From Methanosphaera sp. (GTDB taxonomy: Archaea > Methanobacteriota > Methanobacteria > Methanobacteriales > Methanobacteriaceae), in NCBI GenBank assembly GCA_017431845.1, contig JAFRKG010000076.1, positions 1-64,000 on the forward strand: DNA of 64,000 nucleotides, in the 5' to 3' direction. Position 1 is the first letter of the stretch. The number at the start of each line of letters is the position of its first letter. Made by a program: the position numbers and the translations under genes. Of this stretch, positions 36,001-62,638 are shown piece by piece. The notes beneath the pieces were generated by a model. It saw nothing but the letters and a program-made list of their open reading frames with translations. It did no database searches and was not told the origin of the DNA.

Positions 36001-36790
36001 CGGATGTTTTTTTAACAGCAATTGCTCCTGCAGTTTCATAAGCTGTAAGATTTCTGAATTTGCTGTTGCGAACAGTTACCTGAACATTTTCTCCAAGTAT
36101 TGCATTGCTGTAGTGTGAATGTGAGTTAATAAAAGTTGAATTTTCAACTATTAATTCTCCGTCATAACAAGCAATATGTGACCATTTATTATCTGTTTCA
36201 CCTTCAAATGTAGAATTTACTACTGTCAGGTTACTGTCTCTACTTGTATAAATGTCTGAAGATTCACCACCATTATTTGAAATAAATCTTGAATTGTTGA
36301 TAACCACGTTACACTTTGTTAAACAAATTCCGCCAGTTGTTTCTGGAGATGAAGAATTTTGAATAGTGATGTTTTCAAGATGATAGGTTGCACTTGCCTG
36401 ATTTAAGTTTATTGTACCGTTGAATGCATTTTTGATTATCAGATTTTTTATTGTAATGTTTTCTCCAGTTACATCAAATACACTTGCTTTGCCTTTTGCA
36501 TCAATACTGTGTCCATCACCATCTAGGATATAGTTGTTTTTAGTTATGTTTATTCCACTGGTATAATTGTTGTCAGTGTTTGTATTATAAGCATAGTTCC
36601 TAGTTAATTTAACTTCTTTTTGACTTTCACTAATCTGCTTGTTTAAATTATTGAAGTTTTCCTCTGAAGGTTCTGTTTTTAATATTTTTTCAGTATGCTT
36701 CATTTCTGTTATGTTTTTTTCAGCTGAAACAGCAGATAAAGTGAATAATATGAATATAATTAAAGTAAATATAATTATTTTATTTTTAAT
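33005..36790 (-). CDS. Secreted adhesin-like protein with papain-type (C1A) peptidase domain, ATT start
   Basis: Starting at ATG 36703 the protein would lack a signal peptide. The open frame upstream encodes KNKIIIFTLIIFILFTLSAVSA, a clear signal peptide, and begins with ATT 36790, three bases after GAGGTGGT; there is no ATG, GTG or TTG before the in-frame TGA. This gives 1261 residues. Order: signal peptide; beta-helix repeats (about 60-440); papain-like domain with Cys near 488 (MGSCWTFATTGALES), His near 637 (NHAMTLVGWDD) and Asn near 665 (IIKNSWGTNWGKDGYF); then Ig-like beta-sandwich repeats. No C-terminal membrane anchor is seen. Probably a surface protein that processes or binds host or microbial material. 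Confidence 0.85.
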   Translation of the reverse strand: MKNKIIIFTLIIFILFTLSAVSAEKNITEMKHTEKILKTEPSEENFNNLNKQISESQKEVKLTRNYAYNTNTDNNYTSGINITKNNYILDGDGHSIDAKGKASVFDVTGENITIKNLIIKNAFNGTINLNQASATYHLENITIQNSSSPETTGGICLTKCNVVINNSRFISNNGGESSDIYTSRDSNLTVVNSTFEGETDNKWSHIACYDGELIVENSTFINSHSHYSNAILGENVQVTVRNSKFRNLTAYETAGAIAVKKTSDLTVINCDFTDVSAFKNGGMIFADINDGYEVKIVNSTFNEGFSQFGGTIMQLGGNLFISNSTIKDTQATFDGAAVWTSYANVSIENSTIKNNTHLRKDLEIGGTLYFDNGDINIKSSTFTDNHGSGNSDVIFTYDSKLTLENNTFKDNGLAVYTVFGTENISSNNIFNNDRVSVNNTYYSTNVFNKGVKLNLKNQTVYNNTLPEKFNLKDEGLVGPVRDQGIMGSCWTFATTGALESALLKSTGKLYDFSQDHMQNTMLQYSLNGVNGIVEGAIQSTGVGYTVNWYGPYPTMRDTYDELGKVSQHINIENESIHIQDVMFIPSRQNATDNDIFKKVLMDHGAFMIASYFGESSKYFNQETASRYYNGNKSQNHAMTLVGWDDNFSASNFLVTPPGDGAWIIKNSWGTNWGKDGYFYLSYYDRSIDGYPFYAAYIFNNTVPYNKNYQTDAGQISAIAQEYKYYSNTYTASEDDLIAAVGTYFEEPDIEYNFDIYVNKELKHTQSGISPFSGYHTIKLTEYIPISANDTFKVVFKNNSLPYECTSRQHHKTNTSFASSDGVNWEDVGKENVTVILKVYTVENNAVLTVDPIKDIKIGDTIKITGRFVDKENNSITNAPLNVKVNNETYIVITDNYGKYELSYTNNKGGINNVNVMSLDREYWAANTNTTFTAKKLNVSVSVYEIIGTIGEDITLRATITDENGNPVDGGNLVFKMNGRTLRIDGQFNSDKTPYKFKVKDGIVTFTLQATKYIRNAKNLTASYSGNYKYVEAKANVADVKIQKRKAQVSVSITPNNTRQNNDIVFTATLYDVTKNANNTNCLTENASIIFKVNGVTIKSSNHIVNKIQVNSTVVNYVYHIPSGMGGANANGTKDYVVEAVYDNPSFYPNTRNSSIFNVQRSKVNINFINTTVNNNVLSLKATFTDFEDKYLVGTNKVCVKINGKTYQENGHAKYFNITGGKVDLTGIKLANNTKVKEVMLVTGANQGYLEARATTKDIQTI

Positions 36791-37027
36791 ATTACCACCT
36801 CTATTTCATTTGATTAAATATATTAATACTTGTTACTCATTAGAATATGGTAACTCATTGTAAATGTAATATTTTTTTTGATATATCGTGAAAATAGAAG
36901 AACGTCTTACAATGTATTATATATTTTAACCATACTCTTGTATAATAAACTAACCAATTTCTATTGATTAATTACAATGTTTATATTTTTTAATTATTAA
37001 ATAATTTTTTATAAATTATAATGGTGG

Positions 37028-37130
37028 TGTCAAGATGTGTGGTGAAGTTACCTTTTTCATCATAAAAATGCATTTCGAGAATCCCATCTTTCAAGCTTCA
37101 AATTTAGTCTAGATAAAAATCCACGTAATG
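37028..37130 (+). repeat. 103-bp direct repeat, copy B (left end of the outer insertion sequence)
   Basis: Same length as copy A at 31777-31879, differing at three positions. It starts with the terminal sequence of the outer element and ends just before the 3' end of its transposase remnant. The two copies, in direct orientation about 5.25 kb apart, bracket the adhesin gene and the older transposase fragments. Confidence 0.85.
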
Positions 37131-37699
37131 TTTTAAATTTATTTTTAAAGATTTGGTGCAAGATCACCAAAAATACGCTCAATCCAATTACTAGTTCGTT
37201 CAATAAAACTATCTTCAAGAAACATAGTTAAATAACGAGAATAAGGACGAATCTTTTTATCAACAATCTCATTAATAACATTCGAAAACTCTTCACGCCT
37301 ACTAAAAATATTATCCAATATATCTAATACTTCAAATCTATTTTCTACTTCGTAAATTTGATAAACTTCTTCCAAATAATTTTTATATTCCATATGGGTC
37401 TCTTTTCTGAGATATTGTTCTCTTTTACATGATTGTATAAGTATTTATTGATGTTTTGTTTTGCATAGAATTAACAGAATTGGTGTTTGAACCCTAAATC
37501 TTGTATTGGTTTTCTATAAGCAATATGTAAGTCAGTTGTAATTGCTTTACGAGGTTGATTAAGAGTAGCATTCCGTAAGAAATTATAAACTTCAGTACTG
37601 TTTTCTTCTTCAACTATTTTATAATCCACCAATGTTCTATGATGTACATCAAATAATGCAAAGAAATAAACATAATTATCACCAATTTCATCTATTTTA

Positions 37700-39461
37700 G
37701 ACACTGTCCAATATCTATGGGGATGAATTTTCCTCATTTACTTAAAATGATGAATTTAATAAACTGTTTTTATTTTTTGTTGATTAAATATTTAGTATTG
37801 TTTAATTAAAAAGAGTTGTGTTTTGTTATCCTTATTGTTATGGGGGATTATTTGTATAATTTAATATACATTGTAGTTGTTATTGTTTTAGTTGTTTATT
37901 GGGATTTATAGGGTTATTGATTTGAATAGGTTTAGTTTAGTTTTGTATTAGCAATTTAGAGTTCATAGATATCTATAAATATTGGTAGGAGTAATATATA
38001 TTATTATGTGTCGAAATAAAACTCCTACCAATAATATATTAGATTTAACTTGTCTTAAATCTATCGTTTCTCATGATGTTGATGAAATTATTTTACCTGA
38101 TTGTTTGAGTCCTGATTTTTTATTAATCTTTAATATGTTGGATTTATATGATTTTAATGTTACTTATGTTCTAAGTGATGAAGAATGTCCGGATTGTGGT
38201 GGTAAGTTACATTCTAAGAGTTATCCTACTCGTAAACCTAATGGTTTAGAAAATGTTCGAATTAAGGATTATGAATGTTCTGTTTGTCATAAACGTGTCA
38301 GTGCTAGTTTTGATGAATTTATTGAACGTAGTTCTAATTATACTCGTGCTGTAAAGCATTGGGGTGTTAAATTATCCGAAATTGGTGAAGAATCTTTTGA
38401 AAAGAAATCAGAATTATTTGAAGCAATATTTGGTATAAATCTACCAAAATCAACAGTATTTGACCATCAAAATAAAGTATCAGATACATATCTAGAAAAT
38501 AAAGAAGCATTAGTAGAAGCTTATGTTGAATCTGAAGGATTGAAGGATAATGGAGTGTATCACTATGATGAGCAGTTTCCTAGAGCTGATGGAGATAGTA
38601 TGGCTCGCTTAATGATGTTAGATGCAGAAACTATGTATCCTTACTATGATTATTTAGAAAATGCAACATTATTTGATGCTGAATTAATAGAAAAAATACT
38701 TCCACATAGTTTTAGATGACATTCCCCACAGTGCAATGGTAACTGATGGATATAGTGCATATCCTTCTATAATAGAAAGTTTTGACATGTTACAACAACG
38801 ATGTGTATTCCACATGATGTATAACGTAGGACAAGAAGTATATCCGATAATTAACAGGATAACAAGAACTAATAAAGACAAATACAGCAGATTAGATAAA
38901 ACAAACGAAAAACTAAAGAAAACACTTGATGCCTACGAACCAACCATTGGACCAATAACTGACAAAAAACAGAAAAAACTACACGATACCATCAAAGAAC
39001 TAGAAAAAGAAATCAAAACAATAAAAAAGACTATAAAACGTAATGATAAAAAGATTAAAGAACTAAATAACTATTTAGAAAGAATGTCCAATATATTCAA
39101 AGCAGAAAATTTATCGTTAGCTAAAGGACGTTTATCACGATTAACCAACAATTCGGATTTCTTACCTAATTGTATAGCTAATAGTGCCAACAGAATTAAA
39201 AGTAACTTCAAAGAACTAACAACATTCATGGAAAACGAATTAATACCAAAAACCAACAACTTAATAGAATTATACTTTAAAACCACACTTCCAGGACATT
39301 TAAAACGCAGATACAGAACCACCAAAGGATTATTAAGAAGACTAAAAAGTGCAAGAATACGCTGGATCCAAAGAAATGTACTAAATGATAAATCACCAAT
39401 CACCAACTTCTTCAATTATGACTACATAAACCTACTATCCCCATAGATTTCGGATAGTGCC
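37700..39461 (+). mobile_element. Inner insertion sequence nested in the outer transposase (1762 bp)
   Basis: Inverted repeats of about 25 bp with four mismatches begin GACACTGTCC at 37700 and, on the other strand, GGCACTATCC at 39461; both continue to ATCTATGGGGAT. The flanks carry a direct repeat TATTTTA at 37693-37699 and 39462-39468 (8 bp if one end base is counted). Removing the element and one copy of the repeat makes the outer transposase read VFDSLWVKIDEIGDNYVYFF in frame, which proves the borders. It contains one transposase gene on the plus strand. Confidence 0.9.
38006..39446 (+). pseudogene. Transposase of the inner insertion sequence, split by one frameshift
   Basis: From ATG 38006 the first part has a four-Cys zinc ribbon (CPDCGGK...CSVCHKR) and HYDEQFPRADGDSMARLM, then ends at TGA near 38717. 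The second part continues one frame over from KYFHIVLDDIPHSA into MVTDGYSAYPSI (catalytic Asp) and a long coiled region to TAG 39446 inside the right inverted repeat. The change of frame falls at a run of six A at about 38694-38699; one A fewer restores a single protein of about 480 residues. It could be a real mutation, transcript slippage or a sequence error. The IS family was not settled. Confidence 0.8.
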
Positions 39462-40292
39462 TATTTTAACCCATAAACTATCAAATACATAATATCCAGA
39501 ATAATTTTCTATATTAGACTCATATTTAATACTATAATCGACTACAATGTCCTGTACTTCCTGGTAAGATAAGTATACATTATGAATTCTTTTCATGATT
39601 TCCTGTATTCTACGAACTGGAGTACCACAAATAGCAGAGTAATTCTATATTATCTTCATAATACGCCTGGAAACACTGAAATTACCAAACACATTCAAAA
39701 CAAGTTTTTTAGGATAATAACCATCTTCAACAACATGTTTAGAACCACAATGAGGACAATAACTCCTAAATTGAGTAAAAACAACACCATCTTTAGTTTC
39801 AAAAACTTTCAAATTATTAGTAATCTGAGATAGCTTAGATTTCACATAACCCTCAGCAAAAGTAACTGGAAGATCATCATCAAAATAATTATCCAAATAA
39901 TCTACAATCAAATCTTTACAATCAACAGATAATAAATTTACACATTCATCATCAGTATTATCTTTTCTAATAACATCAACCAATGGTTCACTAAAAAAAC
40001 CGTCAAGTTTAAGTTGATGATCAACATAATTAATAATAGGAGAGTTATTTTCTACTTTCATAATATAATATCTCTCCTTTTTACTATAAAAACTTCATTA
40101 TCACTTATTTTTAAAAACACACCCCAATGGGCGATAAAACTAGTAAAAATTAACATTTAAAATGAATTAAAAAAAGTATTACTTTTTTGCTAAAAAGTAA
40201 CTGAAAATTCATCACCACACATTCTGACTACATCATTTTATATGAATATTTTTCCTAATATAATATATTGACAAAAAAATGTGGACAAAATT

Positions 40293-40844
40293 ATGATAGA
40301 AGTAGAAATTAAAGCAAAAATTGAAGACAATATTGTAGCATATGAAAGGATTAAAGAACTTGGAGGCATATATTCACATAGCGAAAAGCAACATGACATT
40401 TATTTTAATGGAGAAACAAAAGATTTTAAAAAAAGTGATGAAGCATTACGTATTCGTGAAATTCCTGATGGAGAAGATGATATAAAAAGAATTCTTACAT
40501 ATAAAGGTCCTAAATTAGATACTGAAACAAAAACCCGGAAGGAAATTGAAGTTACAGTAGACAATACTGAAAATTTAATAGAAATACTGGTTAATATTGG
40601 ATACAGACCTTCTGCCATTGTAAATAAGATGCGACGCATATTCACCTATGAAGATTATACTATAACAGTAGATAAACTAAATAAATTAGGATATTACATG
40701 GAAATAGAATATGTTACAAATGAAGATGATGATATTGATAGAATACAGTCTGAAATATTCAGTATTTTCGAGAAGTTAGGAATTACAGATGGTTTTGAAA
40801 AAGCATCTTACCTAGAGTTATTAGAAGAAAATAATATTAACTAA
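40293..40844 (+). CDS. CYTH-domain protein (CyaB/thiamine triphosphatase-like)
   Basis: 183 residues from ATG 40293 (a GTG at 40281 is also in frame but lies in the probable ribosome site). The diagnostic ExExK is EVEIK at residues 3-7; later RIREI, LTYKGPKLDTETKTRKEIE and a C-terminal GFEKASYLELL follow. CYTH proteins bind triphosphates in a beta tunnel; archaeal members have been called adenylate cyclase IV or triphosphatase. The substrate cannot be told. It lies just outside the outer insertion sequence. Confidence 0.85.
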   Translation: MIEVEIKAKIEDNIVAYERIKELGGIYSHSEKQHDIYFNGETKDFKKSDEALRIREIPDGEDDIKRILTYKGPKLDTETKTRKEIEVTVDNTENLIEILVNIGYRPSAIVNKMRRIFTYEDYTITVDKLNKLGYYMEIEYVTNEDDDIDRIQSEIFSIFEKLGITDGFEKASYLELLEENNIN

Positions 40845-40929
40845 AAAAATAAATATAATCTATATTCATATATGATTGTTTTAACTATTTCTGATTATAG
40901 TATGTAACATACATTAGGGGGAAATTAAA

Positions 40930-42099
40930 ATTAATGATAGATTCGTAAGTATATATAACAATGAAGTAGAATACAATCTACCAGAAAAAATTAATATATA
41001 CGACACAACACTTAGAGACGGAGAACAAACACCAGGAGTTTGTTTTTCATTAGATGAAAAGTTAGAAATAGCTCATAAATTAGATGAATTAGGCATACCA
41101 CAAATCGAAGCAGGATTTCCTATAGTATCAGAAAATGAAAGAAAATCCGTGAAAACAATAGCAAACGAAGGACTTAATGCAAACATCATATGTTTAACAA
41201 GAACAAAACAGGCAGACATTGATGCTGCATTAGATGCGGATGTAGATGGAATTATCACATTCATGGGATTATCTGATTTGCATTTAAAAGTCAAAATGAA
41301 CAAACCACGAGAAGAAATTAATGAAATATGTATGAATGCTGTAGATTATGGTAAAGACCATGGATTGTTTGTAGCATTCTCTGCAGAAGATGCTACAAGA
41401 ACAGAATTACCTAAACTAATAGAAATATACAAGTTAGCACAAGAACATAAAGCAGATAGAATACATATAGCTGACACGACTGGTTCAATAAATCCATATG
41501 CAATGCAATACATGGTTAGAAACATTAGAAAAGAATTAGATGTTGAAATAGCATTACATTGCCATAATGACTTCGGATTTGCCGTAAGCAATTCAATAGC
41601 TGGATTATTGGAAGGAGCGTCATCAGTATCAACAACTGTTAATGGTATAGGTGAAAGGGCAGGAAATGCATCATTAGAAGAGTTAATAATGTCCCTAAAA
41701 TTATTATACAACAAAGATTTAGGATTTAACACACAAGTAATATCAGAACTATCAAAAATTGTATCAAAATATAGTAAAATACCAGTACCAGACAGCAAAG
41801 CTATTGTAGGAAACAATGTATTCAGACATGAATCAGGAATACACGTAGATGCAATAGTAAAAGACCCATTTACATACGAACCATTCTTACCAGAAATGAT
41901 AGGAACAAAAAGACAAATAGTGCTGGGAAAACATTCAGGAAAAGCTGCAATAGAAGAAAAATTAGATTCATTAAACATTAAAGTAGATGAACAGAAATTA
42001 CTAGAGATTGTTAAACTAGTTAAAGAAGAACGTGAAAAAGGTTTTGAAATAACCAATGATAAATTTGATGAAATATTAGTCAAAGCAAACATAAACTGA
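40930..42099 (+). CDS. aksA: Homo(n)citrate synthase AksA-type (isopropylmalate synthase family), ATT start
   Basis: 389 residues if ATT 40930 is the start. The first in-frame ATG or GTG is at 41149, far inside the catalytic domain, after INIYDTTLRDGEQTPGVCF. The frame is open only back to TAG 40915-40917 and has no ATG, GTG or TTG there; ATT 40930 is 8 bases after GGGGG. Motifs: TTLRDGEQTPG, SDLHLK, HCHNDFGFAVSNS, GERAGNASLEE and FRHESGIHVDA. The GFPIVSE and TFMGLSDLHLK segments resemble AksA more than LeuA. AksA extends 2-oxoglutarate for coenzyme B. An aconitase large subunit follows after 8 bp. Confidence 0.88.
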   Translation: MNDRFVSIYNNEVEYNLPEKINIYDTTLRDGEQTPGVCFSLDEKLEIAHKLDELGIPQIEAGFPIVSENERKSVKTIANEGLNANIICLTRTKQADIDAALDADVDGIITFMGLSDLHLKVKMNKPREEINEICMNAVDYGKDHGLFVAFSAEDATRTELPKLIEIYKLAQEHKADRIHIADTTGSINPYAMQYMVRNIRKELDVEIALHCHNDFGFAVSNSIAGLLEGASSVSTTVNGIGERAGNASLEELIMSLKLLYNKDLGFNTQVISELSKIVSKYSKIPVPDSKAIVGNNVFRHESGIHVDAIVKDPFTYEPFLPEMIGTKRQIVLGKHSGKAAIEEKLDSLNIKVDEQKLLEIVKLVKEEREKGFEITNDKFDEILVKANIN

Positions 42100-42107
42100 G
42101 GGTTTAA

Positions 42108-43355
42108 ATGAACATTACTGAAAAAATCTTAGCAAAAGCTTCAAACAAAGATGAATTAAGTCCTGGAGATACAGTAAATGCGAAAATAGATGTTGCAATG
42201 AGCCATGATGGAACTAGCCCACCTACAATCAAAGTATTTGAGAAAATAGCAGATAAAGTGTGGGATTCGGATAAAATTGTTCTAGTATTTGACCATAATG
42301 TACCTGCCAATACTATGGGTTCAGCAGAATTTCAGCAAGTAGTACGAGATTTTGCAAAAAACCAGGGAATCAAAAATATATACAAACAAGGGGAAGGTAT
42401 ATGTCACCAGGTTCTACCAGAGGAAGGACATGTTAAACCATCAACAGTAATTGTTGGAGCAGATTCACATACATGCACTTATGGAGCTTTTGGAGCATTT
42501 TCAACAGGACTTGGGGCAACTGATTTAGCAATGGTATATGCAACAGGAGAAACATGGTTTAATGTACCAGAAACACTTAAAATTAATGTAAATGGTTCAT
42601 TACAAGAAAATGTTTATTCAAAGGATTTGATTCTGAATATTATTAAAACATTAGGTTCTTATGGTGGAACATATAAAAGCTTAGAATTTCATGGAGAAAC
42701 AATAGATAACTTATCAGTTGATGCACGTATGACCATGACAAATATGGTTATTGAATGTGGAGCAAAGAATGGAATAATGGTACCGAATAAAAGTACTGAA
42801 GAATATCTTGCAAGAAGGGGCATAACTGATTATAATATTACAACACCAGATAAAAATGCTGAATACGAGAAAGTGTATGATTTTGATGTTGATGATTTAA
42901 GGCCACAGGTAGCTTGTCCTCATAATGTTGATAATGTAGAGGATATAGATAAAGTTGAAGGAACAAGCATTAACCAGGCAGTTCTGGGTTCTTGCACTAA
43001 TGGTCGATATGAAGACTTAGTACAAGCTGCAAAAATACTTGAGAATCATAAGGTTCATGAGGATGTTCAATTATTAGTGTTCCCAGCTTCACGTAAAATT
43101 TATCAAAAAGCTATTGATGAGGGCATTATACAAATATTCCTTGAATCAAATGCAATTATCTGTAATCCTGGATGTGGACCATGTCTTGGTGCACATATGG
43201 GTGTGATGACAGATGATATGACTTGCATATCTACTACTAACCGGAATTTCCTTGGTAGAATGGGTAGTGCAAAGTCTTATGTATACTTATCTAATCCTGC
43301 AGTAGTTGCAGCTTCAGCAATTACTGGAGAAATAACTGATCCCCAAAATATTTAA
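42108..43355 (+). CDS. hacA: Homoaconitase / 3-isopropylmalate dehydratase large subunit
   Basis: 415 residues, of the LeuC/HacA type. The [4Fe-4S] cluster cysteines are in VLGSCTNGR and CNPGCGPCLG; DHNVPAN and GADSHTCTYGAFGAFSTG are active-site segments. It isomerises homocitrate-type acids in coenzyme B synthesis if paired with AksA, or isopropylmalate in leucine synthesis. It follows aksA directly, so the first is favoured. No small subunit gene is in the window. Confidence 0.88.
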   Translation: MNITEKILAKASNKDELSPGDTVNAKIDVAMSHDGTSPPTIKVFEKIADKVWDSDKIVLVFDHNVPANTMGSAEFQQVVRDFAKNQGIKNIYKQGEGICHQVLPEEGHVKPSTVIVGADSHTCTYGAFGAFSTGLGATDLAMVYATGETWFNVPETLKINVNGSLQENVYSKDLILNIIKTLGSYGGTYKSLEFHGETIDNLSVDARMTMTNMVIECGAKNGIMVPNKSTEEYLARRGITDYNITTPDKNAEYEKVYDFDVDDLRPQVACPHNVDNVEDIDKVEGTSINQAVLGSCTNGRYEDLVQAAKILENHKVHEDVQLLVFPASRKIYQKAIDEGIIQIFLESNAIICNPGCGPCLGAHMGVMTDDMTCISTTNRNFLGRMGSAKSYVYLSNPAVVAASAITGEITDPQNI

Positions 43356-43413
43356 TTCATATTTTTAAATTAATTATTTTTTTTGATAAAAAAAAGGTAA
43401 GGTTTTTAGGAGT

Positions 43414-44271
43414 TTATTGGAATTCTTGAACTTTTTGTCTTAAATAAGCTAAAACTTCTTCTTTGACTTCATCTTCTTGTGTTAATGCCATGTCTATTGA
43501 ACTTTTTAGCCATTCCATGGTATTACCAATATCATATATTGTTCCTTCAAATGTTGTTGCATAAACATTTTCTTGTTCATTAATTGCATCTGTTAATTGG
43601 ATTTCTCCACCAACACCTGCTTCTATTGATTCAAGTTTATCAAAAATGTCTGGTGTAAGTATATATCTTCCAGTAATACCGAGGTTAGATGGTGCATCTT
43701 CCAGTTTTGGTTTTTCTACAAGGTTTTTTACTTTGTAAATATTATCTTCAACAGTTACTCCATCTACAATTCCGTAACGTTCTATTTTTCTTTCTGGTAA
43801 TTCTTCTATTGCAATCGTTGATCCACCATATTTTTCATATACATCTATTAATTGTTTGGTACATGGAGTATCGGAGTATGTGATTGTATCACCGAGTAGT
43901 ACTGCGAATGGTTCGTCACCTATATGTTTTTTGGCACAACTTATTGCATCTCCAAGACCGTTCTGTTTTTTCTGACGTACATAGAATATGTCTGCGAGGT
44001 TTGATATTCCCTGTACCTCTTTAAGGTAGTCTAGTTTACCTTTCTGTTCGAGATTATATTCTAGTTCGAATGATTTGTCGAAATGGTCTTCTATTGGTCT
44101 TTTTCCTTTTCCGGTGATTATAATGATATCATCTATACCAGAGTTAACTGCTTCTTCTACCACGTATTGTATTGTTGGCTTATTAAATACTGGCAACATT
44201 TCTTTTGGTTGTGCTTTTGTTGCAGGTAAAAATCTTGTTCCTAAACCTGCTGCCGGAATAACTGCTTTCAT
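43414..44271 (-). CDS. galU: UTP--glucose-1-phosphate uridylyltransferase
   Basis: 285 residues. Nucleotide-binding PAAGLGTRFLPATKAQPKE starts the protein; FAVLLGDTI and IVEKPKL-like VEKPKLEDAPSN are also seen. It makes UDP-glucose, the substrate of GalE. It is the last gene of the minus-strand run rmlB, rmlA, galU, 15 bp after rmlA. Confidence 0.92.
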   Translation of the reverse strand: MKAVIPAAGLGTRFLPATKAQPKEMLPVFNKPTIQYVVEEAVNSGIDDIIIITGKGKRPIEDHFDKSFELEYNLEQKGKLDYLKEVQGISNLADIFYVRQKKQNGLGDAISCAKKHIGDEPFAVLLGDTITYSDTPCTKQLIDVYEKYGGSTIAIEELPERKIERYGIVDGVTVEDNIYKVKNLVEKPKLEDAPSNLGITGRYILTPDIFDKLESIEAGVGGEIQLTDAINEQENVYATTFEGTIYDIGNTMEWLKSSIDMALTQEDEVKEEVLAYLRQKVQEFQ

Positions 44272-44286
44272 ATTTTTTCTACTCCT

Positions 44287-45354
44287 CTATAATTTTATTA
44301 CTGAATTTTCTCCTATTACAAAACTTCTTCCTTTTGGAAATGTTTTTTTGTCTGATATTATTTTTGAGTTTTGTCCTAATAGGCTTTCGGTTATTCTTTT
44401 ATCGGATTGAATTGTTGAGTTTCCTATAATGATTGAAGAATCTATTTCTGATTCTATGAGTTTGGTATTATCTCCTATTGATGTGTATGGTCCAACATAA
44501 CCTTTTATTTCACAGTTTTCTCCAATAATTGCAGGACCTTTAATTACAGACCCTGACTTTATTACTGTGCCTTTTCCTATGATTACTCTTCCTTTAATTT
44601 TTACATCATCTTCAACAGTACCCTGTATGTCTGTTTTGATTGTTTCAAGGATTAACTGGTTTGCATCAAGGACATCTTCTGGTTTACCTGTGTCTTTCCA
44701 CCATCCTTCTACCACGAATGAATCTACATTAAATCCATCATCTATTAATTGTTGTATAGCATCTGTGATTTCCAGTTCATTTCTCCAGGATGGTTTGATT
44801 TTATCAATTGCATCAAAGATATTGTTTTTGAATAAGTATATTCCTACTAATGCCAGGTTACTTTTTGGATGTTCTGGCTTTTCTACAAGATTAATGATTT
44901 TTCCTTCATCATTTAATTCTGCTACTCCAAATTGTCTTGGATCTTCTACTTCTTGTAATAATAATCTGGATGAAAAGTCTGATTCGTCAAATCCGCTTAC
45001 AAATTCTTCAATACCTGACTTTAAAATGTTGTCTCCCAGGTACATTACGAAGGAATCTCCTCCGACAAATTCTTGTGCTGTTTTTGCTGCATGTGCCAGA
45101 CCTTTAGGTTCACCCTGCATTATGTATGTAATGTTCACTCCGAAGCGTGATCCATCACCTAGTGCATCTTTTATCTTATTTGGCATATTAGTTCCTAATA
45201 TGATTCCAATTTCAGTAATACCTGCATCGCGTAAATCTTCTATAGCATAATCTATTACTGGTTTATTAGCTATAGGAATTAATTGTTTAGGTCCTGTGTG
45301 TGTTAATGGTCTTAATCTTGTTCCATGACCACCGGATAAAATAACACCTTTCAA
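44287..45354 (-). CDS. rmlA: Glucose-1-phosphate thymidylyltransferase, long form with left-handed beta-helix tail
   Basis: 355 residues from TTG 45354, four bases after GAGGTGAG; the longer frame's GTG lies inside that ribosome site. GVILSGGHGTRLRPLT starts the nucleotidyltransferase domain, with MYLGDNIL and GYVGPYTSIGDN. The C-terminal third has hexapeptide-like repeats (IIGKGTVIKSGSVIKGPAIIG). This long type is common in Archaea. It makes dTDP-glucose for the downstream pathway, although UTP or other sugars are possible. Confidence 0.9.
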   Translation of the reverse strand: MKGVILSGGHGTRLRPLTHTGPKQLIPIANKPVIDYAIEDLRDAGITEIGIILGTNMPNKIKDALGDGSRFGVNITYIMQGEPKGLAHAAKTAQEFVGGDSFVMYLGDNILKSGIEEFVSGFDESDFSSRLLLQEVEDPRQFGVAELNDEGKIINLVEKPEHPKSNLALVGIYLFKNNIFDAIDKIKPSWRNELEITDAIQQLIDDGFNVDSFVVEGWWKDTGKPEDVLDANQLILETIKTDIQGTVEDDVKIKGRVIIGKGTVIKSGSVIKGPAIIGENCEIKGYVGPYTSIGDNTKLIESEIDSSIIIGNSTIQSDKRITESLLGQNSKIISDKKTFPKGRSFVIGENSVIKL

Positions 45355-45503
45355 TAAACTCACCTCAAAAAAATATAAAATTTTTGTTAAGAAACTATTA
45401 TAGTATAAGGTTATGTTTATACTTAAGATTTAATAAACCTTTTTAAAAATAGTATTAATGAAATTTTAAAATTTTCTAAAAAAAAGAATAACTTTGTAAT
45501 GTT

Positions 45504-46457: not shown

Positions 46458-46547
46458 AATTATCACCCTTACGTTTATATCGATAATGTTATTATTGTAT
46501 ACTATTTATCTTTTTGGAAATTAATAAAATTTTTTAGTTAATTTTTT

Positions 46548-46880: not shown

Positions 46881-46938
46881 TTGATTAATTTTTCTCACCT
46901 GAAAAATATTTTATATTTTAATTTGTAAATAGATAACT

Positions 46939-47995: not shown

Positions 47996-48013
47996 CTTAA
48001 ATTTTAATATATT

Positions 48014-50932: not shown

Positions 50933-50981
50933 GTAAATCACATTGTAATTAAAAGAAAAAAATAGTTAGATTTTTGAAGAA

Positions 50982-52382: not shown

Positions 52383-52540
52383 TTTAGACTCTCCATATAC
52401 CTAAATTAAATAGAAGTTGAAGTATTTTTTTATTAAATTATATTATTAGATTTAATTTTTAGAATACTTATATTTTCTTAGAAAAAACTAATTGGTAAAA
52501 ATAGTTATGAATAAAGGGGGTGAAAGTTAAAATAGGGGTT

Positions 52541-53092: not shown

Positions 53093-53306
53093 ATTAAACC
53101 ACTCCAATATATATTTTTGTAAAAAAACATATTTAACTATTATTGTATTGAAAAATATTAGTAAAATGTAATAAGTTAAGGCTAATAATTGATAATTATC
53201 TGTATAAATAAATTTATTGTTTAATTGTGAATTTTGGCAATTTGAATAAATAATAAGTTACAGAAATATTATTAAGATTAGACAAAAATATAGGAGTTAT
53301 AGTAGA

Positions 53307-54179: not shown

Positions 54180-54924
54180 AATGTTTTTCAAATGCTTTTG
54201 TGTAGTTTGATATTATGGTAGGATAAGTGTTATGTAATCCAATCATATTTTTTTGATGAATATTATTTTTTATATTTTCTGCAAATATTAGGAACATTTC
54301 CTTATTGTCTCGGATTAATAGTTGTGCTGCGGGTAAGTTAATATATTTTATTTGAGCTGAAAGATCTGATAGTTCTTTTTCCAGGTTTATTTCTTTGTTA
54401 TTGAAAGTGTATTTTTTTGATGCTAATATTTTAACGTTTACTCCTTTTTTTAATAGGTATGTTATGTATTTTTTGAATGCTGTTATTTCTTCTGGTATTA
54501 TGAATCCTATTCTTATGTATAGTGTTTGTTTTGTGTTTTTTATTATTGAGAATTTTTGTTTGTATATATTGTCTTCATCTTCTATTGATGTGATTGGTGT
54601 GTTTATTTTTGGAATTTTGCTTTCGTATAATTTTATCATGTTCTGTTCTAGTTTGTCGAAGTGTTCGTTGAATTGTTTCTTATATTCTGGTAATGTGTCT
54701 TTTGGATGTTTGATTGTGTATTCTATTGGTCTTTTTTGTTGTATGTCTATTAATTCTTTTTTGTATAGGTTTTCTAGTACTGAATAAATTTTTGAGCGGG
54801 GTATTTTTGAGTCTTTGCTTATTTCATCTGCTTTTGCTGATACTAATCCTACTAATGATATGTATGCTTTTGATTCGTATTCTGTGAATCCTATTTGTTT
54901 TAATGTGTTTACCATTTCTTCCAT
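54172..54924 (-). CDS. TrmB-family transcriptional regulator
   Basis: 250 residues from ATG 54924 (GTGAT upstream). The N-terminal winged helix has [43 protein letters not shown], typical of TrmB; a coiled stretch and a C-terminal phospholipase D-like effector domain ([17 protein letters not shown]...[11 protein letters not shown]) follow. TrmB proteins sense sugars or other ligands. It diverges from hcp (131 bp), a possible target. Confidence 0.85.
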
Positions 54925-55055
54925 TCTAATCACTCTTGTATATTTTTTCTATTGTGGACTATAAATATATTTTTTCATTTTAACTTTCTTAGTGACAAAT
55001 TATTATATAAAAAAATAGTTTATAAGTATTAACATAAAACAATAGGTGATAAATT

Positions 55056-56354
55056 ATGAATGATAAAATGTTTTGTTATCAATGCTCACAAACAGTAAAC
55101 GCGGAAGGATGTACAGTAGCCGGTGTATGTGGAAAAAATGAAACACTAGCAAGACTACAGGATAACTTAATATTCACATTAAAAGGAATATCCGCATACG
55201 CATACCAGATGAGAGAATTTGGAGAAACAGATGAAGAAATAAATGCTTTCATAGAAAAAGGATTATACTCCACATTAACCAATGTGAATTTTGATATACA
55301 AAGCTTCATAGACATGGCCGTAGAAGCAGGACAGATAAACATTAAAGCAATGGCAGGACTTAAAAAAGCACATATCGATAACTATGGAGAACCTGTACCT
55401 GTAGAAGTACCAAAAGGTGCAAGCAAAGGACATGGAATTTTAGTAACCGGACATGACTTAAAAGTATTAGAAGAATTACTTAAACAGACCGAAGGAAAAG
55501 GAATTAACATATACACTCACAGTGAAATGTTAATAGCTCATGGTTATCCAGAACTTAAAAAATATGAACACTTGAAAGGTCAATTAGGTGGAGCATGGAT
55601 TGATCAAAAAGAAGTATTTGCAAAATATAACATACCAATTCTTGTAACAACAAACTGTGGATTAATACCTCTGGATTCATATGCAGATAGAATTTACACT
55701 TCAGGAATAGCACAACTACCTAACACTCCACATATTGATAACTATGATTTCAGTGACATAATTAAACAAGCATTAGAATTACCTGAACTTGAAGAAGAAG
55801 AAAAAACATCATATACCACAGGATTTGGAAAAACAACAGTACTATCATTAGCTGATACTATTAAAGAAGCCGTACTTAGCGGAAAAATTAAACAGTTCTT
55901 TGTGATGGGTGGATGTGACACTCCATTTAATAAAGAAATGGAATATTACACAGAATTTGCTAAACAATTACCAGAAGATACTGTTATATTATGTGTAGGT
56001 TGTGGAAAATACAGATTCAATGATTTAGATTTAGGTGATATTGATGGAATTCCAAGATTAATTGACCTTGGTCAATGTAATGATGCAATTGTTGGAGCAG
56101 AAATATTAACTGCACTTACAGAAGTATTTGATATGGAATTAAATGATTTACCTGTTACTTTCGTATTAAGTTGGATGGAACAAAAAGCAGTTTCAATTCT
56201 ATGGAGTTTATTATCATTAGGTCTTACCAACATCCATATTGGTCCTGTTCTTCCAGCATGGATTGATGAAACCATATTAACTGTACTTGTTGATAACTTT
56301 GATTTAAAATTAATTAATACACCTGAAGAGGATATTAAGGAAATATTAGGTTAA
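55056..56354 (+). CDS. hcp: Hybrid cluster protein (prismane, hydroxylamine reductase)
   Basis: 432 residues, the short form lacking the long N-terminal insertion. CX2CX8CX5C (Cys7, 10, 19, 25) binds the cubane cluster; [34 protein letters not shown] and LSWMEQKAV bind the hybrid cluster. It reduces NO, hydroxylamine or peroxides. GGTGAT with five bases to ATG 55056. Confidence 0.95.
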
Positions 56355-56387
56355 ATTATTTTCCTAATATTATATTATTTTTTTTTA

Positions 56388-57494
56388 CTAATTTTTTGGG
56401 TTTGTTGTAGTATTTAATATATCTGAAAATTCAAGGTCAGCTGCCCATTTTTCTTTACATTCACAAGAAAAGTTTTCTAGTTCTTCAGATATTTCTTGTT
56501 CTAGATTTGATTTTATTATTAAACTTTTGAGTTTAGCGTTACATTTTTTACAGTTAAATGGTCCTCGTCTTGTACCAAAACCTGCGGTATCCATAATCAT
56601 TGGTATGTCCACGTTTTTTCGTACTTCTTTTATTATTTCAACTGTACTCCATATCCATGGCGGATTATATGAACCTTTTTTCCATAGGGAATCCATCATT
56701 GTTCCTCCATGTACTGTGGCAGGACAATATGCTAATCTTCGTACTCCTACATCTTTTGCATATTTTGCTGAGTCTATGGATTCTTCTATTGCTTGTTTTT
56801 CAGAGATCAGTATTGGTTTAACTAGTAAATATGCTTTTGCTCTTATATCATATTCTGTTATTGAGTTTATCTTTGATACTGCTTTTTCGAAGGATTTGTT
56901 TGTTATTCCTTTATTAATCTTATTTAATCGAGTATCCTCATTAGAAGTCTCAAGACCTATACCAATCTCAAAAATTTTATCAGGGATTATGCTTGCAAGT
57001 CGTTTTAATGAAACTTCGTCTATGTATTCTGGTTTGGATTCAACAATTACCTCTTTAATTTGGTCGTATTTGCTGAATTTATTGAAGATATATTCCTGAA
57101 CTTTTTCAGGTATTTCATTTACATTTAAAAAACTACCAGAAACAAATAATTTTATAGCAACATTATCTTTAGTAGAAATATCAACCTTTTCTAGCTGCTT
57201 ATTCCATTCATTATCAAATATCGTTACAAGATCATCACTAGAAATATCCATCAATGGTGAATCAGAAATATAACTACACATAGTACATCCACCACTTTTA
57301 GTAGCCCATTCACATCCACTTGTTGGTAAAACAATAAAAATTGTATGACCTACACAGTCATATAACCTGTCCTCATTAGACCAGCTAGCAGCATATGCCT
57401 GTAATGCTTTCTTATTCTTCTTTCTGTCACGTTTTTTAATTATATTTGCAATAGAATTTTCCCTTATTTGCCTATTTATTTCCTGAACTTTCAT
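56388..57494 (-). CDS. Radical SAM enzyme of archaeosine synthesis (RaSEA)
   Basis: 368 residues. Radical SAM cysteines form CX8CX2C in SGCEWATKSGGCTMCSY; later ELGIGLETSNEDTRLNKINKG and LVKPILISEKQAIEES. Two pairs of cysteines near the C-terminus (FNCKKCN, FSCECKEK) may bind zinc or RNA. With the partner ArcS it forms archaeosine (G+) at tRNA position 15. It is 10 bp downstream of mer on the same strand. Confidence 0.85.
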   Translation of the reverse strand: MKVQEINRQIRENSIANIIKKRDRKKNKKALQAYAASWSNEDRLYDCVGHTIFIVLPTSGCEWATKSGGCTMCSYISDSPLMDISSDDLVTIFDNEWNKQLEKVDISTKDNVAIKLFVSGSFLNVNEIPEKVQEYIFNKFSKYDQIKEVIVESKPEYIDEVSLKRLASIIPDKIFEIGIGLETSNEDTRLNKINKGITNKSFEKAVSKINSITEYDIRAKAYLLVKPILISEKQAIEESIDSAKYAKDVGVRRLAYCPATVHGGTMMDSLWKKGSYNPPWIWSTVEIIKEVRKNVDIPMIMDTAGFGTRRGPFNCKKCNAKLKSLIIKSNLEQEISEELENFSCECKEKWAADLEFSDILNTTTNPKN

Positions 57495-57504
57495 AGATAA
57501 AACC

Positions 57505-58470
57505 TTAATTAAATGAGTTAATAATATCTTCCACTAATTTTAAAGCATTCTCCCTATCTTTTCCTATAGGTGAACCAATAACAAATTCATTAATACCCAA
57601 CTTTGTAAATTCTTCAATTTTAGCAGATATATCCTCCGGAGTTCCACAAACTGAAAATGCATCAATCATGTTTTCATCAACAAGACTACTTGCTGTTTTA
57701 AAATCATACACTGCCAATGCGTTTCTAATTTTAATTGCAACATCTACAGAAATATTATGACGTTCCAATACCACATCCGGTGCACCTGCAAGAATGAATG
57801 CAACAACTGTTTTTGCCTGATTATATGCAATATCCACATTCTCATCAATACTGCATGCAGTATATGCTGCAAAATTATAATCGGCCTTATTACCTCCTTT
57901 TTGAATTCCTTCTTTTATTAATGGAACTGCTATTTCAAAATCTTTAGAATTGGAAGCATTAATTAAACATCCATCAGCAACTTCACCTGATGCTTTAAGC
58001 ATCATTGGACCTTGAGCTGCCATATATATTGGAATGTTACTTTCTATTTTTTTTATTCCATTAAGATGTGCACCTTGTTCTAATTTTTCACCATTTAACA
58101 ATACTCTTATATCATTAATAGCATTTTTAACTGTTTTAACAGGTTTTGACCAGGATAAATTTAATGTTTCCATAGTAGCTTTATCTCCAGGACCTACACC
58201 TACAATAGCTCGTCCATCAGATATTTCATTTAAAGTTGCTGTAGCAGATGCTATTGTAACTGGATTTCTTACAAAAGGATTTGAAACTCCAGACCCCATA
58301 TGAATAGTGCTTGTTTCATGAGCAGCTAATGCTAAAACTTCAAAAACATCTCTATTGTTATAATGATCAGTTATCCAGATATTTTCAAATCCAATATTTT
58401 CTGCAAGTTTTATAACTTCTAATATGTCTTTAATCGGTTCATTTGGCAGAAGTTCTAAACTAAATTTCAT
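57505..58470 (-). CDS. mer: F420-dependent methylenetetrahydromethanopterin reductase
   Basis: 321 residues from ATG 58470 after GAGGGGAT. FSLELLPNEPIKDI, WITDHYNNRDVFEVL, GSGVSNPFVRNP and VGVGPGDKATMETL are typical of Mer. It interconverts methylene- and methyl-tetrahydromethanopterin with coenzyme F420. In a methanogen that reduces methanol with hydrogen it may work mainly for C1 supply or methyl oxidation. It heads a short operon with the archaeosine gene. Confidence 0.92.
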   Translation of the reverse strand: MKFSLELLPNEPIKDILEVIKLAENIGFENIWITDHYNNRDVFEVLALAAHETSTIHMGSGVSNPFVRNPVTIASATATLNEISDGRAIVGVGPGDKATMETLNLSWSKPVKTVKNAINDIRVLLNGEKLEQGAHLNGIKKIESNIPIYMAAQGPMMLKASGEVADGCLINASNSKDFEIAVPLIKEGIQKGGNKADYNFAAYTACSIDENVDIAYNQAKTVVAFILAGAPDVVLERHNISVDVAIKIRNALAVYDFKTASSLVDENMIDAFSVCGTPEDISAKIEEFTKLGINEFVIGSPIGKDRENALKLVEDIINSFN

Positions 58471-58659
58471 TATTATCCCCTCTAACATTCTAAAATTAAT
58501 GTTATTTAAAATATTTTATATTATTATTAGTTATGTTAAAAGTAACTTCTATACTTTTTGAAAAAATAGATTGTATAAATAATTTTTATAATATAAGTTA
58601 AATTGAAAAATAATAAAATAATATGAAAAAAAAAAGAAAAAAAAGAATATAAGTCTATA

Positions 58660-60759
58660 TTAGAATGATATACTTGTGTATCTTTTAACTGTAGATGATT
58701 TGTACCAGTTATTTATTACTCCAAATGTATTTCTGCTTGAAGTAGTATCACATTTATACCATTGACCATTTACATAAACTTCTGTCCATACGTGACCTAC
58801 TACAAGACCACTTGTGAAGTAACATGTTGCATGACAATACCTTGCAGGTAATCGTGCTGTACGGAACATACCAATCAATACGTGTGATTGATCTACACAG
58901 TTACCATAACCTCTACTTAAAGTTCCTAATGCTCCATATCTAGTATTCATGTAAAACTGATAATCAGTTACAGCATTTACATAATCAAATATAGCTTTTG
59001 CTTGAGCATATAAAGAAGTAGCACCACTAATTGCTTTTTTAACAGCATTATACATAGTTGTACTGTTTACATAAGCGTTCTTAGCACTGCCCAGGTATTG
59101 TTCAAATCCGGAAGGTACATCATTATCCGTTGCTGATCCACTGCTTGAAGAGGATGAACTAGATGAAGATGATGATGAACTTGAAGATGAAGTAGAAATC
59201 TTATCTATTCCAACATAATTTGGCAACCGATTGTGTTCAGCTAAATAACCAATTACTCTTGAGTAAGCATAAACAGCATCAGTAAAGCTTAAGGTTAAAC
59301 CTGAATTACTTTTCATAGTTTTTGGAGCACGTCCATTTTCTATATAAGAGTCAACTATAGTCTTAGCCAAAGCCATATAATCTTTAGTGTAGAAGTTAAT
59401 ATTATACTGGGATGTGCCGGTTGATGATGAAGGTGTTGAAAATCCTCCATTATGGAAAGAATCATTATATGTTAACATTTGTGTATACATGTATAATAGA
59501 TCTGCCATTGATACTTCGTTACCACCCATAGCTGCATAGTTAGGTAATCTATTATTGTTTTTAATAAAATCTCTAACTGATACTCCTTTTTCAAGTAATT
59601 GAGCATAAGTATAAGTTGAAACTAAATCTGATTGAACCCTTAATGTTGTATTTTTTCTTACTTCATTTAATGCACCAGAACCACCATATACTACAGTTAC
59701 AACGTAATGCTCTTCATCTAATTTGCTTGAATCATACTTGTATTCAGCGGTACTGTCAACCATTTTTACTGTTGCAACTGTTTTTCCATTTATTTTGAAA
59801 CCAAGTTTACCTGTAGCATCAGTGTAACCAACATCTGTTAATTTTGCTTTTAATGTTACGGTATAACCTTTTTTAACAAAAATTAATGAATCAACATCTA
59901 TTTTAGGTGTTCTTTTCTTAACTACTAATTTAGCCGAAGTTTCTTTATAAGATGAAACTGTGGTTTCTCCTATTTTTAATATTAATGGATAAGTTTTTGC
60001 CTTAGCAGGGACAACACAAGTTACTGATGCTACCCCATTTTGTACTATTGTAGAACCAATAGTTTTTCCGTTTATTTTGAAAACTGCTTTTGTACTATTT
60101 ACTGGTGTTCCATCTTCATAATTAACATTAGCTTTTAATGTTGTTTTTGCTGCAGATAAGACTTCAGAATCTTCTAATGTAACAATTACATTATGTCTCT
60201 TAATTAATAAAGACGAAGTTGCTTTTGTAGTTGCTGTTTCTGAAGTTTCACCTACTGTTATTGATATATCATATTCTTTTGCATGCCATTTTGGTAGCAT
60301 ATAATTAAAGGATATGATTCCATTAGTAACTCTTGGATGACCTATAGTATTTCCATTAATTTTAATAGCAGTTTTTGCATCTTTTAAGATTTCACCATTT
60401 TGATAAGTAACACTTGCTTTTATTGTGATTAATTGATTTGCATATGATGTTATTGGTTGAGATGTTATGATAACTTTTTCTTTGTTTGCTGCTGTCTTTG
60501 TGTTAGAATTGTTTGTTGATTGTTTTGATATTGTTTTCTCATCGGATGAAATATCATTTGTTATAGCTTCATATTCATTGCTTACCGTATTTTTTATAGA
60601 ATTTGATTCTATATTGGTATTACTCTCTGTTTGTGTATTTGTAACAACATCTGATGTTAAATCATTTGTTGTAGTATTTTCATTGCTATCTGTTGCAGAT
60701 ATTGCGGAAATACTGAGTAAGATTGAAACAAAGAGAACCAAAATCAAACTTCTCTTAAT
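58660..60759 (-). CDS. Secreted transglutaminase-like protein with pseudomurein-binding repeats, ATT start
   Basis: 699 residues if ATT 60759 is used. The longest ATG/GTG/TTG frame (TTG 60747) cuts the charged n-region off the signal peptide; ATT 60759 lies 7 bases after GGAGG and yields KRSLILVLFVSILLSISAISA after the start. Then Thr/Ser/Asn-rich spacer (25-95), three Ig-like (Big_3-type) repeats (about 95-375), two pseudomurein-binding repeats (VRDFIKNNNRLPNY and AEHNRLPNYVGI regions), a run of about 17 Ser, and a transglutaminase-like domain with YGNCVDQSHV (Cys), VVGHVWTEVYV (His) and YKCDTTSS (Asp). Likely a wall-bound peptide-cutting or remodelling enzyme. Confidence 0.87.
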   Translation of the reverse strand: MKRSLILVLFVSILLSISAISATDSNENTTTNDLTSDVVTNTQTESNTNIESNSIKNTVSNEYEAITNDISSDEKTISKQSTNNSNTKTAANKEKVIITSQPITSYANQLITIKASVTYQNGEILKDAKTAIKINGNTIGHPRVTNGIISFNYMLPKWHAKEYDISITVGETSETATTKATSSLLIKRHNVIVTLEDSEVLSAAKTTLKANVNYEDGTPVNSTKAVFKINGKTIGSTIVQNGVASVTCVVPAKAKTYPLILKIGETTVSSYKETSAKLVVKKRTPKIDVDSLIFVKKGYTVTLKAKLTDVGYTDATGKLGFKINGKTVATVKMVDSTAEYKYDSSKLDEEHYVVTVVYGGSGALNEVRKNTTLRVQSDLVSTYTYAQLLEKGVSVRDFIKNNNRLPNYAAMGGNEVSMADLLYMYTQMLTYNDSFHNGGFSTPSSSTGTSQYNINFYTKDYMALAKTIVDSYIENGRAPKTMKSNSGLTLSFTDAVYAYSRVIGYLAEHNRLPNYVGIDKISTSSSSSSSSSSSSSSSSSGSATDNDVPSGFEQYLGSAKNAYVNSTTMYNAVKKAISGATSLYAQAKAIFDYVNAVTDYQFYMNTRYGALGTLSRGYGNCVDQSHVLIGMFRTARLPARYCHATCYFTSGLVVGHVWTEVYVNGQWYKCDTTSSRNTFGVINNWYKSSTVKRYTSISF

Positions 60760-61087
60760 CTTATCGCCTCCTATACAACCAAAAAAAAGATTCTGTATGA
60801 ATCGGATTAAATATATTGTATTAATTTTTTTATGGTTTGTTTTTAGTGATCAATTTTTTTCAAAATTAATAAGCTATGAAAATTAAGAATCTATACAATT
60901 CTTAAGAATAACTTATCTTTTTATAAGTATTTAAAGATATAGTAAAAAGATTTATATATAGGGGACATTAATAGTTAAAAAAAGTTTAAAAATATTGAAA
61001 ATTATTATATTGCTGGGAAAAAAATTGAAACCAAAAAGTATATAAATAAGTTCGGAGATATTTTATATTGTACTACATGTACTAAAT
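60760..61087. promoter_or_regulatory. Intergenic region with tRNA-Gln promoter
   Basis: Apart from the ribosome site of the transglutaminase gene, no gene is seen. BRE/TATA-like CCAAAAAGTATATAAATA at about 61031-61047 lies about 40 bases before the tRNA. On the other strand the transglutaminase promoter must lie near 60790-60860 but no clear box stands out. A GATTTATATATAGG segment near 60950 is a further TATA-like site. Confidence 0.5.
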
Positions 61088-61159
61088 AGTCCCATAGGGT
61101 AGTGGCAATCCTCCTGGTCTTTGGAACCGGGGACAGCGGTTCGACTCCGCTTGGGACTA
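61088..61159 (+). tRNA. tRNA-Gln (anticodon TTG)
   Basis: Acceptor AGTCCCA pairs with TGGGACT, followed by A. The anticodon stem is CTGGT/ACCGG with loop CTTTGGA, giving TTG. The T-loop is GGTTCGACTCC. CCA is not encoded. A matching TATA box lies about 45 bases upstream. Confidence 0.95.
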
Positions 61160-61242
61160 CTAATCTTTTAACTAGTTTTACAAAAAATTTATTTAATAAT
61201 TATAACAAATAATTTACTTAAGAAATATAAGGAGATTAAAAT

Positions 61243-61398
61243 ATGCCTTATGAAGATCCATTAAAAGAATACTTAGATGAAGATCCTGAAAGAAGAGTAA
61301 AATTATTTTATATTTATACAAGAATAATGATAGTATCAACATTCCTAATAGCATTTGGAGTAATGGTATACATACTAATAACATTAAAAATAATATAA
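61243..61398 (+). CDS. Small single-pass membrane protein (51 residues)
   Basis: The ATG at 61243 follows AAGGAGATT. The protein has a charged N-terminus (MPYEDPLKEYLDEDPERRVK) and one hydrophobic helix (residues about 28-48, ending LITLKII). The coding frame ends exactly where the convergent ATP-grasp gene ends, with no base between. I do not recognise it. The clear ribosome site, charged/TM layout and A-ending codons support a real gene. Confidence 0.65.
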   Translation: MPYEDPLKEYLDEDPERRVKLFYIYTRIMIVSTFLIAFGVMVYILITLKII

Positions 61399-62487
61399 TT
61401 AAATTATAGAATCATACACTTTTTTTCTTATTATTTCAGCTTTACCCATAGCATTCTCTAAAATCCTATCAGATACGATAATAGTAGCAATAGGAGTGCC
61501 TTTTTTATACAAGTAATCAGATGGAGAACAATCATTTAAGAAATCAATTCCCCTTAAATCATACTTAGCATCATTCAATGAATAAGGAACTAATTTTACA
61601 CAAAAATTCTTTAATTTAGGAATTTCAACCAGTTCATTATTACAAGAATCAATATGTGCCTTAGCTAAGTTAATGTTAAAACTATTTTCCACACATTCAA
61701 ATGTGCCCTGAATCCTAGGATTAACTTCCAATACATAAACATTATTTTTATGTAAAATAAAATCCACACCATTAGAACCAACAAGTTTAAACATTTTAGA
61801 AATTTTTGTTGAAATGTTAATTAATTTGGGATTAGAATTGATTAATGGAGTAATGTTTCCACAATATAAAAAGTCATTACCACCCAACATTTTTGAACCA
61901 ATAATCTGATCAGAGGTAGTGACCATGCTAATTTCATGGGAATTATATGATAAAAAAGAACTGCTTACGCTTTTTCCTTCTATATATTCCTGTAAAATAA
62001 AATCTCCATCCAATTGAATATTAGTATTGAAATAATTTATTCCAACTCCGCCTGAACCATATATAGGTTTGATAACAAATTTTTTATCTTTATGGTTATT
62101 AACTATTTCTGTTGCTTCTTCAATACTGTTAATTCTATATGTTGCAGGCATTAGGAAGTTTTTATGTAATTTTTTATACATTTCCCATTTATTGTTGATG
62201 TGTCTTGTATTAGTATTTCCTATGATTTTTGAATGAGGATACCTATCTGTGTTAACATCACTAGAAAAAATAATGTAATCAACATCATTTACATAATTTA
62301 ACGATAAATCTTCTAATATTTTTAAATCAAAAGTATCATTATTTGATGGAACAATTAGTTTATCCACATATTTTTTTTGATCTTCCAATTCAAAAAAACT
62401 GGTAGCATACACAGTATACCCCAACATTTTTAAAGATTTTGAAACTGCCCTAGTATTAGAACCAACAACTAAAATAATCGTAATAAT
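61399..62487 (-). CDS. ATP-grasp enzyme (carboligase-like), probable ATT start
   Basis: From ATG 62427 the protein would lack the conserved first strand; upstream the frame encodes IILVVGSNTRAVSKSLK, a typical N-terminus of the COG2232-type ATP-grasp family. Only ATT codons are available as starts (62475 to 62490); GGTTGT at 62491-62496 favours 62487, giving 362 residues. FVIKPIYGSGGVGIN and FILQEYIEGKSVSSSF are ATP-binding, VLEVNPRIQGTFECVE is the metal-binding end. It probably joins an acid to an amine using ATP; substrate unknown. Confidence 0.8.
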   Translation of the reverse strand: MITIILVVGSNTRAVSKSLKMLGYTVYATSFFELEDQKKYVDKLIVPSNNDTFDLKILEDLSLNYVNDVDYIIFSSDVNTDRYPHSKIIGNTNTRHINNKWEMYKKLHKNFLMPATYRINSIEEATEIVNNHKDKKFVIKPIYGSGGVGINYFNTNIQLDGDFILQEYIEGKSVSSSFLSYNSHEISMVTTSDQIIGSKMLGGNDFLYCGNITPLINSNPKLINISTKISKMFKLVGSNGVDFILHKNNVYVLEVNPRIQGTFECVENSFNINLAKAHIDSCNNELVEIPKLKNFCVKLVPYSLNDAKYDLRGIDFLNDCSPSDYLYKKGTPIATIIVSDRILENAMGKAEIIRKKVYDSII

Positions 62488-62638
62488 AATACAACCTAAA
62501 AAATTTTTGAAAATATAAAAAAATTAATTCAATAAATAAAATTAGTAATTCCAATAATATAACATTTTTGAAAAAATAGTAATTTAATAATAAAGTTGGA
62601 AAGGTTAAAAAAAGAATAATCATGGAAAATCCATGAAA

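Follow-up and report, generated by a model that had tools for sequence, protein, structure and literature searches.

Can AUU serve as an ordinary translation start in an archaeon? The question is raised by a 64,000-nucleotide stretch of a Methanosphaera genome, here called the window (G000:C182:1-64000, part of a 203-contig genome). A preliminary description held that four of its genes have N-termini upstream of every in-frame ATG, GTG and TTG and begin at ATT instead, named a weaker fifth case, and took their density over 26 kb as a sign that the organism accepts AUU routinely or uses it to damp translation. The comparison set comprised 20 genomes, including the near-complete same-species genome G010, the single-contig genome G016 (1,767,403 bases) and other Methanosphaera species. 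Very probably AUU is the genuine start of all four genes, read by the initiator Met-tRNA and in part selected, in part tolerated. A search of mostly open-access literature turned up no account of AUU initiation in Methanosphaera.

AUU start codons in four genes of the window

Each of the four ATT codons was found in place, at Shine-Dalgarno spacing and with no in-frame ATG, GTG or TTG upstream. In orthologues the codon is either conserved (12 of 12 and 14 of 14 in the transglutaminase families) or canonical, with TTG or ATG standing there or one codon on. All four starts are upheld by genus-wide or homologue alignment, and a comparative scan of 140 ORFs from the window and G010 independently recovered three of them (aksA, the ATP-grasp gene and the transglutaminase gene) as genes in which a conserved N-terminus precedes every canonical start.

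The first gene (33005..36790, minus strand) encodes a secreted adhesin-like protein of 1261 aa with beta-helix, Peptidase_C1 and lectin-like domains (Pfam). Its ATT (36788..36790) stands 3 nt after a Shine-Dalgarno segment read from the sequence as AGAGGTGGT (36794..36802), opens the signal peptide IKNKIIIFTLIIFILFTLSAVSA and aligns exactly with the ATG of homologues in G010, G015, G017 and G000:C120 (L321-L324), where the first codons read ATG AAA AAT, or ATG AAA CAT in G017. The first canonical codon of the window gene, ATG 36703, lies past the entire signal peptide, which would therefore be lost if translation began there. Two further homologues have other arrangements, one with an apparent ATC start following GGGGGG (L327, G008:C1 ~750.4 kb) and one with GGAGGT and no clear in-frame start, perhaps frameshifted (L326, G019:C17 ~107.7 kb).

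On the plus strand, an AksA-like member of the isopropylmalate/citramalate/homocitrate synthase family (40930..42099, 389 aa; TIGR02090, 519.7 bits) begins at ATT 40930..40932, behind the Shine-Dalgarno segment AGGGGG (40916..40921; AGGAGG in G004). In the genus-wide alignment this codon is ATT in most Methanosphaera species, ATC in G016, ATA in G008 and TTG in G013, and five species (G001, G002, G003, G011, G012) have ATG one codon further downstream; the pattern is repeated in named independent records. The genomes with ATT share a G-rich Shine-Dalgarno-like run, the ATT and then [KNR]DR[FY]VSIYN, and in most of them a stop codon lies in frame a short way upstream. Not until GTG 41149 does the window gene offer a canonical start; this is residue 74, inside an HMGL-like domain that starts at residue 20 and includes the catalytic motif DTTLRDGEQ. 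A protein begun there would lack 54 residues of the domain and lose its catalytic N-terminus.

The ATP-grasp enzyme (61399..62484, minus strand; ATP-grasp_3, 119 bits) is preceded by the Shine-Dalgarno-like AGGTTG (62492..62497; GGTTGT in most genomes) and three consecutive ATT codons (62482..62490). In the window and most relatives no canonical start lies ahead of the conserved first strand ILVVGSNTR, so that ATT 62490, 62487 or 62484 is the candidate start; the third is the best by homology, aligning with TTG in G001 in the genus-wide alignment. The Shine-Dalgarno sites of this gene and of aksA are not all strong.

The fourth gene (58660..60759, minus strand) encodes a secreted, adhesin-like protein of 699 aa with Transglut_core and pseudomurein-binding repeats (Pfam), the pairing of a pseudomurein endoisopeptidase, found also in L305 of another genus. 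Its ATT (60757..60759) lies 3 nt after the Shine-Dalgarno sequence AGGAGGCGAT (60763..60772), and the arrangement GGAGGNGNTAMG-ATT-AAG recurs in 12 of 12 Methanosphaera genomes, even though its identity to the protein of most species beyond its own is just 41-66%. Only at the start does the alignment have isoleucine throughout, and there every genome uses ATT, while isoleucine is elsewhere encoded by ATT 264, ATA 244 and ATC 47 times. Leader identity is 0.89 against a mean of 0.57, a level matched by 3 of 43 other genes. In a second transglutaminase family, GGAGGTTTTATA-ATT-AAR is present in 14 of 14 genes from 13 genomes. A hairpin that spans the start of the transglutaminase gene is conserved, and a search for compensatory changes in it found none.

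The weak fifth case, ATT 46889 (46887..46889, minus strand), did not survive comparison, as its G019 ortholog begins with ATG AAA AAA GTT at the position of window ATG 46880, which makes an ATT start unneeded.

Two readings would deprive the remaining starts of meaning. That translation begins at a downstream AUG, GUG or UUG, upstream conservation being incidental, would agree with automatic ORF calling, which takes canonical codons, and with the presence of TTG 60747 four codons past ATT 60759 in the window. That codon, however, is TTA in G004, G011 and G012, and the next starts of aksA and the adhesin fall within the catalytic domain and past the signal peptide, making such a reading very improbable. 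Sequencing or assembly errors, or decayed genes, might be suspected in a genome of 203 contigs, but identical sites in the near-complete same-species genome and in independent assemblies of other species, single-contig genomes among them, refute this and reduce its probability to a negligible level.

Distribution of AUU starts in Methanosphaera and other genera

The genome-wide excess of ATT at Shine-Dalgarno spacing, put forward earlier as a check on these starts, was sought in a partial genome sampling of ~1.57 Mb of Methanosphaera sequence (slightly less for the spacing test) containing 1071 long ORFs. Among ORFs without a good canonical site, ATT stands at this spacing 29 times, 3.1 times the expectation, versus 0.9 times at the wrong spacing (Poisson p ~2e-7, orthologues being counted and thus not independent). 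When each independent family is counted once, the enrichment is weak and falls short of significance by itself (6 families, p ~0.1, on a conservative expectation). Since many counts are orthologues or paralogues and the family-level enrichment is weak, the weight of the evidence lies on conservation: the same codon is kept in many related species, which argues that the AUU start is real and probably selected.

Among ORFs with a signal peptide, as assigned by a simple hydrophobicity rule, ATT is the one non-canonical codon outstanding by number (14; the next, 2). It ranks second among the start codons of long secreted ORFs with a strong Shine-Dalgarno site (ATG 18, ATT 14, one of them judged false, TTG 2, ATC 1), and occurs in none of 32 such ORFs in 600 kb from three other Methanobacteriaceae genomes (Fisher p 0.0035). 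All eight transglutaminase-domain ORFs of the Methanosphaera sample start with ATT, the window and G010 copies of one gene being counted separately. On the whole G016 chromosome, 3 of 13 matches to GGAGG-N5-8-ATT-AAR are secreted-type starts, versus 0 of 9 matches to an ATA control. Raw genome-wide counts of GGAGG-N5-8-ATTAAR failed to separate the genera and are uninformative because GGAGG is frequent within genes; individual matches, read singly, did separate them. An apparent ATT gene at 89749 of the G016 sample was dropped owing to an in-frame ATG two codons upstream. Position +4 is A in 9 of 10 ATT families and in 54% of ATG genes, a modest excess (p 0.02).

AUU-started Methanosphaera genes mostly encode secreted cell-surface proteins, and one encodes AksA, an enzyme of coenzyme B biosynthesis. 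Because they are spread all over the sampled genomes, no regional effect underlies their density in the 26-kb stretch, and the special status once given to it falls away. Routine acceptance of AUU, by contrast, is borne out by genus-wide conservation, by occurrence in some ten gene families of the partial sample, and by recurrence in one other genus.

In that genus (G029), ATT starts with strong Shine-Dalgarno sites and signal peptides were found at five genes (L305, L307, L328, L329, L330), two of which match the transglutaminase protein; at a third transglutaminase match, L306, the codon is ATC and an ATG follows four codons later. Two other genera yielded candidates as well, which are weaker (L331, L333) or stand alone (L332). 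All of these were picked by eye from a pattern list and speak for existence, not frequency.

Several other unusual starts were encountered. In a secreted ORF of 1,500 codons in the G043 sample (L208; G043:C1 ~46.3 kb, minus strand), ACG AAA AGA and a signal peptide come after AAAAGGAGGTGAAAAA, and no canonical start lies nearby; it is a candidate for an ACG start. Similarly, a secreted protein at position 40030 of the G003 sample (L182) has AAAAGGAGGTAAAAAT ATC AAA ACA AGA AAA and no canonical start, making it an AUC candidate. Three homologous short ORFs of ~24-28 codons in G040 (L334, minus; L335, plus; L336, minus; e.g. IKNKILKEFLTILKLSLEIVKILIKWWG) each have GGAGGTG..ATT AAA, with a hairpin and a T-rich stretch 3' of the ORF, and are possibly a family of AUU-started amphipathic small peptides. 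Also, three near-identical leaders with signal peptides in G016:C1 (733023, 1045101 and 1567536) read GGAGGAAAA(A/G)TG ATT AAA ATG AAA, so that tandem ATG/GTG, ATT and ATG starts are on offer.

Decoding and retention of AUU

In each of eight Methanosphaera genomes there is one initiator tRNA gene, with anticodon CAU and a sequence near-identical to that of other genera, suggesting that ordinary Met-tRNAi probably reads AUU. Genus-wide AUU use would also be accounted for by a special initiator tRNA, its anticodon AAU or GAU. In each of the eight genomes, however, a single tRNA combines the GGG...CCC anticodon stem of initiators with an initiator-like sequence, and its anticodon is CAU; a variant was sought in them and not found, which leaves this alternative highly improbable. 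The start positions, their conservation, the enrichment at Shine-Dalgarno spacing and the ordinary initiator tRNA are established at the level of sequence. The simplest mechanism compatible with them would have the Shine-Dalgarno site, usually strong and usually joined by A at +4, place AUU in the P site. There the initiator Met-tRNA (CAU) would pair with a third-position mismatch, the near-cognate pairing being stabilised by the strong Shine-Dalgarno site and perhaps by A at +4, and the proteins would begin with methionine. AUU starts occur throughout the genus, chiefly in secreted surface proteins. For the two transglutaminase genes selection appears to maintain the codon, most simply because it would hold synthesis low or make it respond to the activity of initiation factors; the AUU of aksA and of the ATP-grasp gene probably represents tolerated drift among start codons.

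How far the pattern reflects selection is the closest of the choices. AUU might be tolerated throughout and have no regulatory role, a slightly weak start codon drifting in where it does no harm because the Shine-Dalgarno site is strong and little of the product is needed. The variation of aksA between ATT, ATC, ATA, TTG and a shifted ATG argues for tolerance, as this gene drifts among codons and does not hold to AUU with AUG one mutation away; the Shine-Dalgarno sites of the ATT families are also somewhat stronger than those of ATG secreted genes (p ~0.009, in a small hand-picked sample). Against tolerance alone, both fast-evolving transglutaminase genes keep ATT and its spacer in 12 of 12 and 14 of 14 cases although AUG is one mutation away, and the leader of the window gene is conserved beyond that of most genes. 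Such strict conservation favours selection and fits the damping of translation suggested earlier, and AUU appears to be kept by selection in these two genes; tolerance as the whole account has somewhat less than an even chance. At the level of families, mRNA structure was no different for ATT starts than for canonical secreted genes (p 0.17, gene G010b 72063 being left out of this controlled comparison): single-gene z-scores of the start region were mixed, and the excess structure vanished against the canonical secreted genes.

A wider reading would make AUU the mark of a translational expression class in Methanobacteriaceae, consisting of secreted wall-acting proteins whose selected AUU starts let synthesis be set jointly by one factor, most simply aIF1. 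It draws on the ATT starts of all sampled Methanosphaera transglutaminase-domain ORFs and on the ATT or ATC starts of transglutaminase proteins in another genus, and is for now rather doubtful.

If this common human-gut archaeal genus starts genes at AUU routinely, and partly under selection, gene callers limited to ATG, GTG and TTG truncate the genes concerned, losing the signal peptides of surface proteins and the catalytic residues of a methanogenesis-cofactor enzyme. The genus would also offer a natural system in which to study how start-codon fidelity depends on archaeal aIF1 and on Shine-Dalgarno strength, and whether start-codon choice tunes cell-wall enzymes.

Comparison with known systems

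In bacteria, infC (encoding IF3) and pcnB start with AUU, which is conserved and keeps expression low or autoregulated. The Methanosphaera genes resemble these in combining AUU and a Shine-Dalgarno site with an ordinary initiator tRNA. They differ in kind: in place of one or two genes for translation or RNA factors, an archaeal genus here uses the codon for a number of secreted proteins and enzymes. None of the AUU genes encodes an initiation factor that would discriminate against the codon, as in the infC type, and autoregulation of that type is inapplicable because aIF1 itself starts with ATG in Methanosphaera.

In Sulfolobus, archaeal aIF1 selects against starts other than the canonical ones, and in Pyrococcus it destabilises incorrect complexes (PMC6237735, PMC8211752). 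It would be the obvious factor to set AUU efficiency in Methanosphaera. The parts of these studies consulted describe no natural set of AUU-started genes (PMC6237735, PMC8211752). The aIF1 of Methanosphaera stops at ..DTIEIK (L129, L130, L131, L117, L124, L126, L128, L132), without the basic C-terminal tail (RDSDKKFNRKRR-like) that other genera of Methanobacteriaceae have; this tail has no established role in start selection.

Group-III transglutaminase-type adhesin-like proteins have been described from M. stadtmanae and M. smithii (PMC11532034). The transglutaminase-like domain and pseudomurein-binding repeats are shared with these proteins and with PeiW and PeiP (PMC2989375), and in the portions of the sources consulted an AUU start is mentioned for neither group (PMC11532034, PMC2989375). 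PeiW and PeiP are phage pseudomurein endoisopeptidases (PMC2989375), whereas wall cleavage by the cellular proteins is putative. Given the matching domain pairing (PMC2989375), low synthesis of a putatively wall-cleaving enzyme would be a plausible reason for keeping AUU.

A survey of start-codon evolution described switching among AUG, GUG and UUG and purifying selection on AUG (PMC5622118). Switching of start codons is seen also in Methanosphaera aksA; the survey, however, found a single switch from ancestral AUG to AUU in 61,358, with AUU genes too few for analysis (PMC5622118), and by this measure the pattern in Methanosphaera is unusual.
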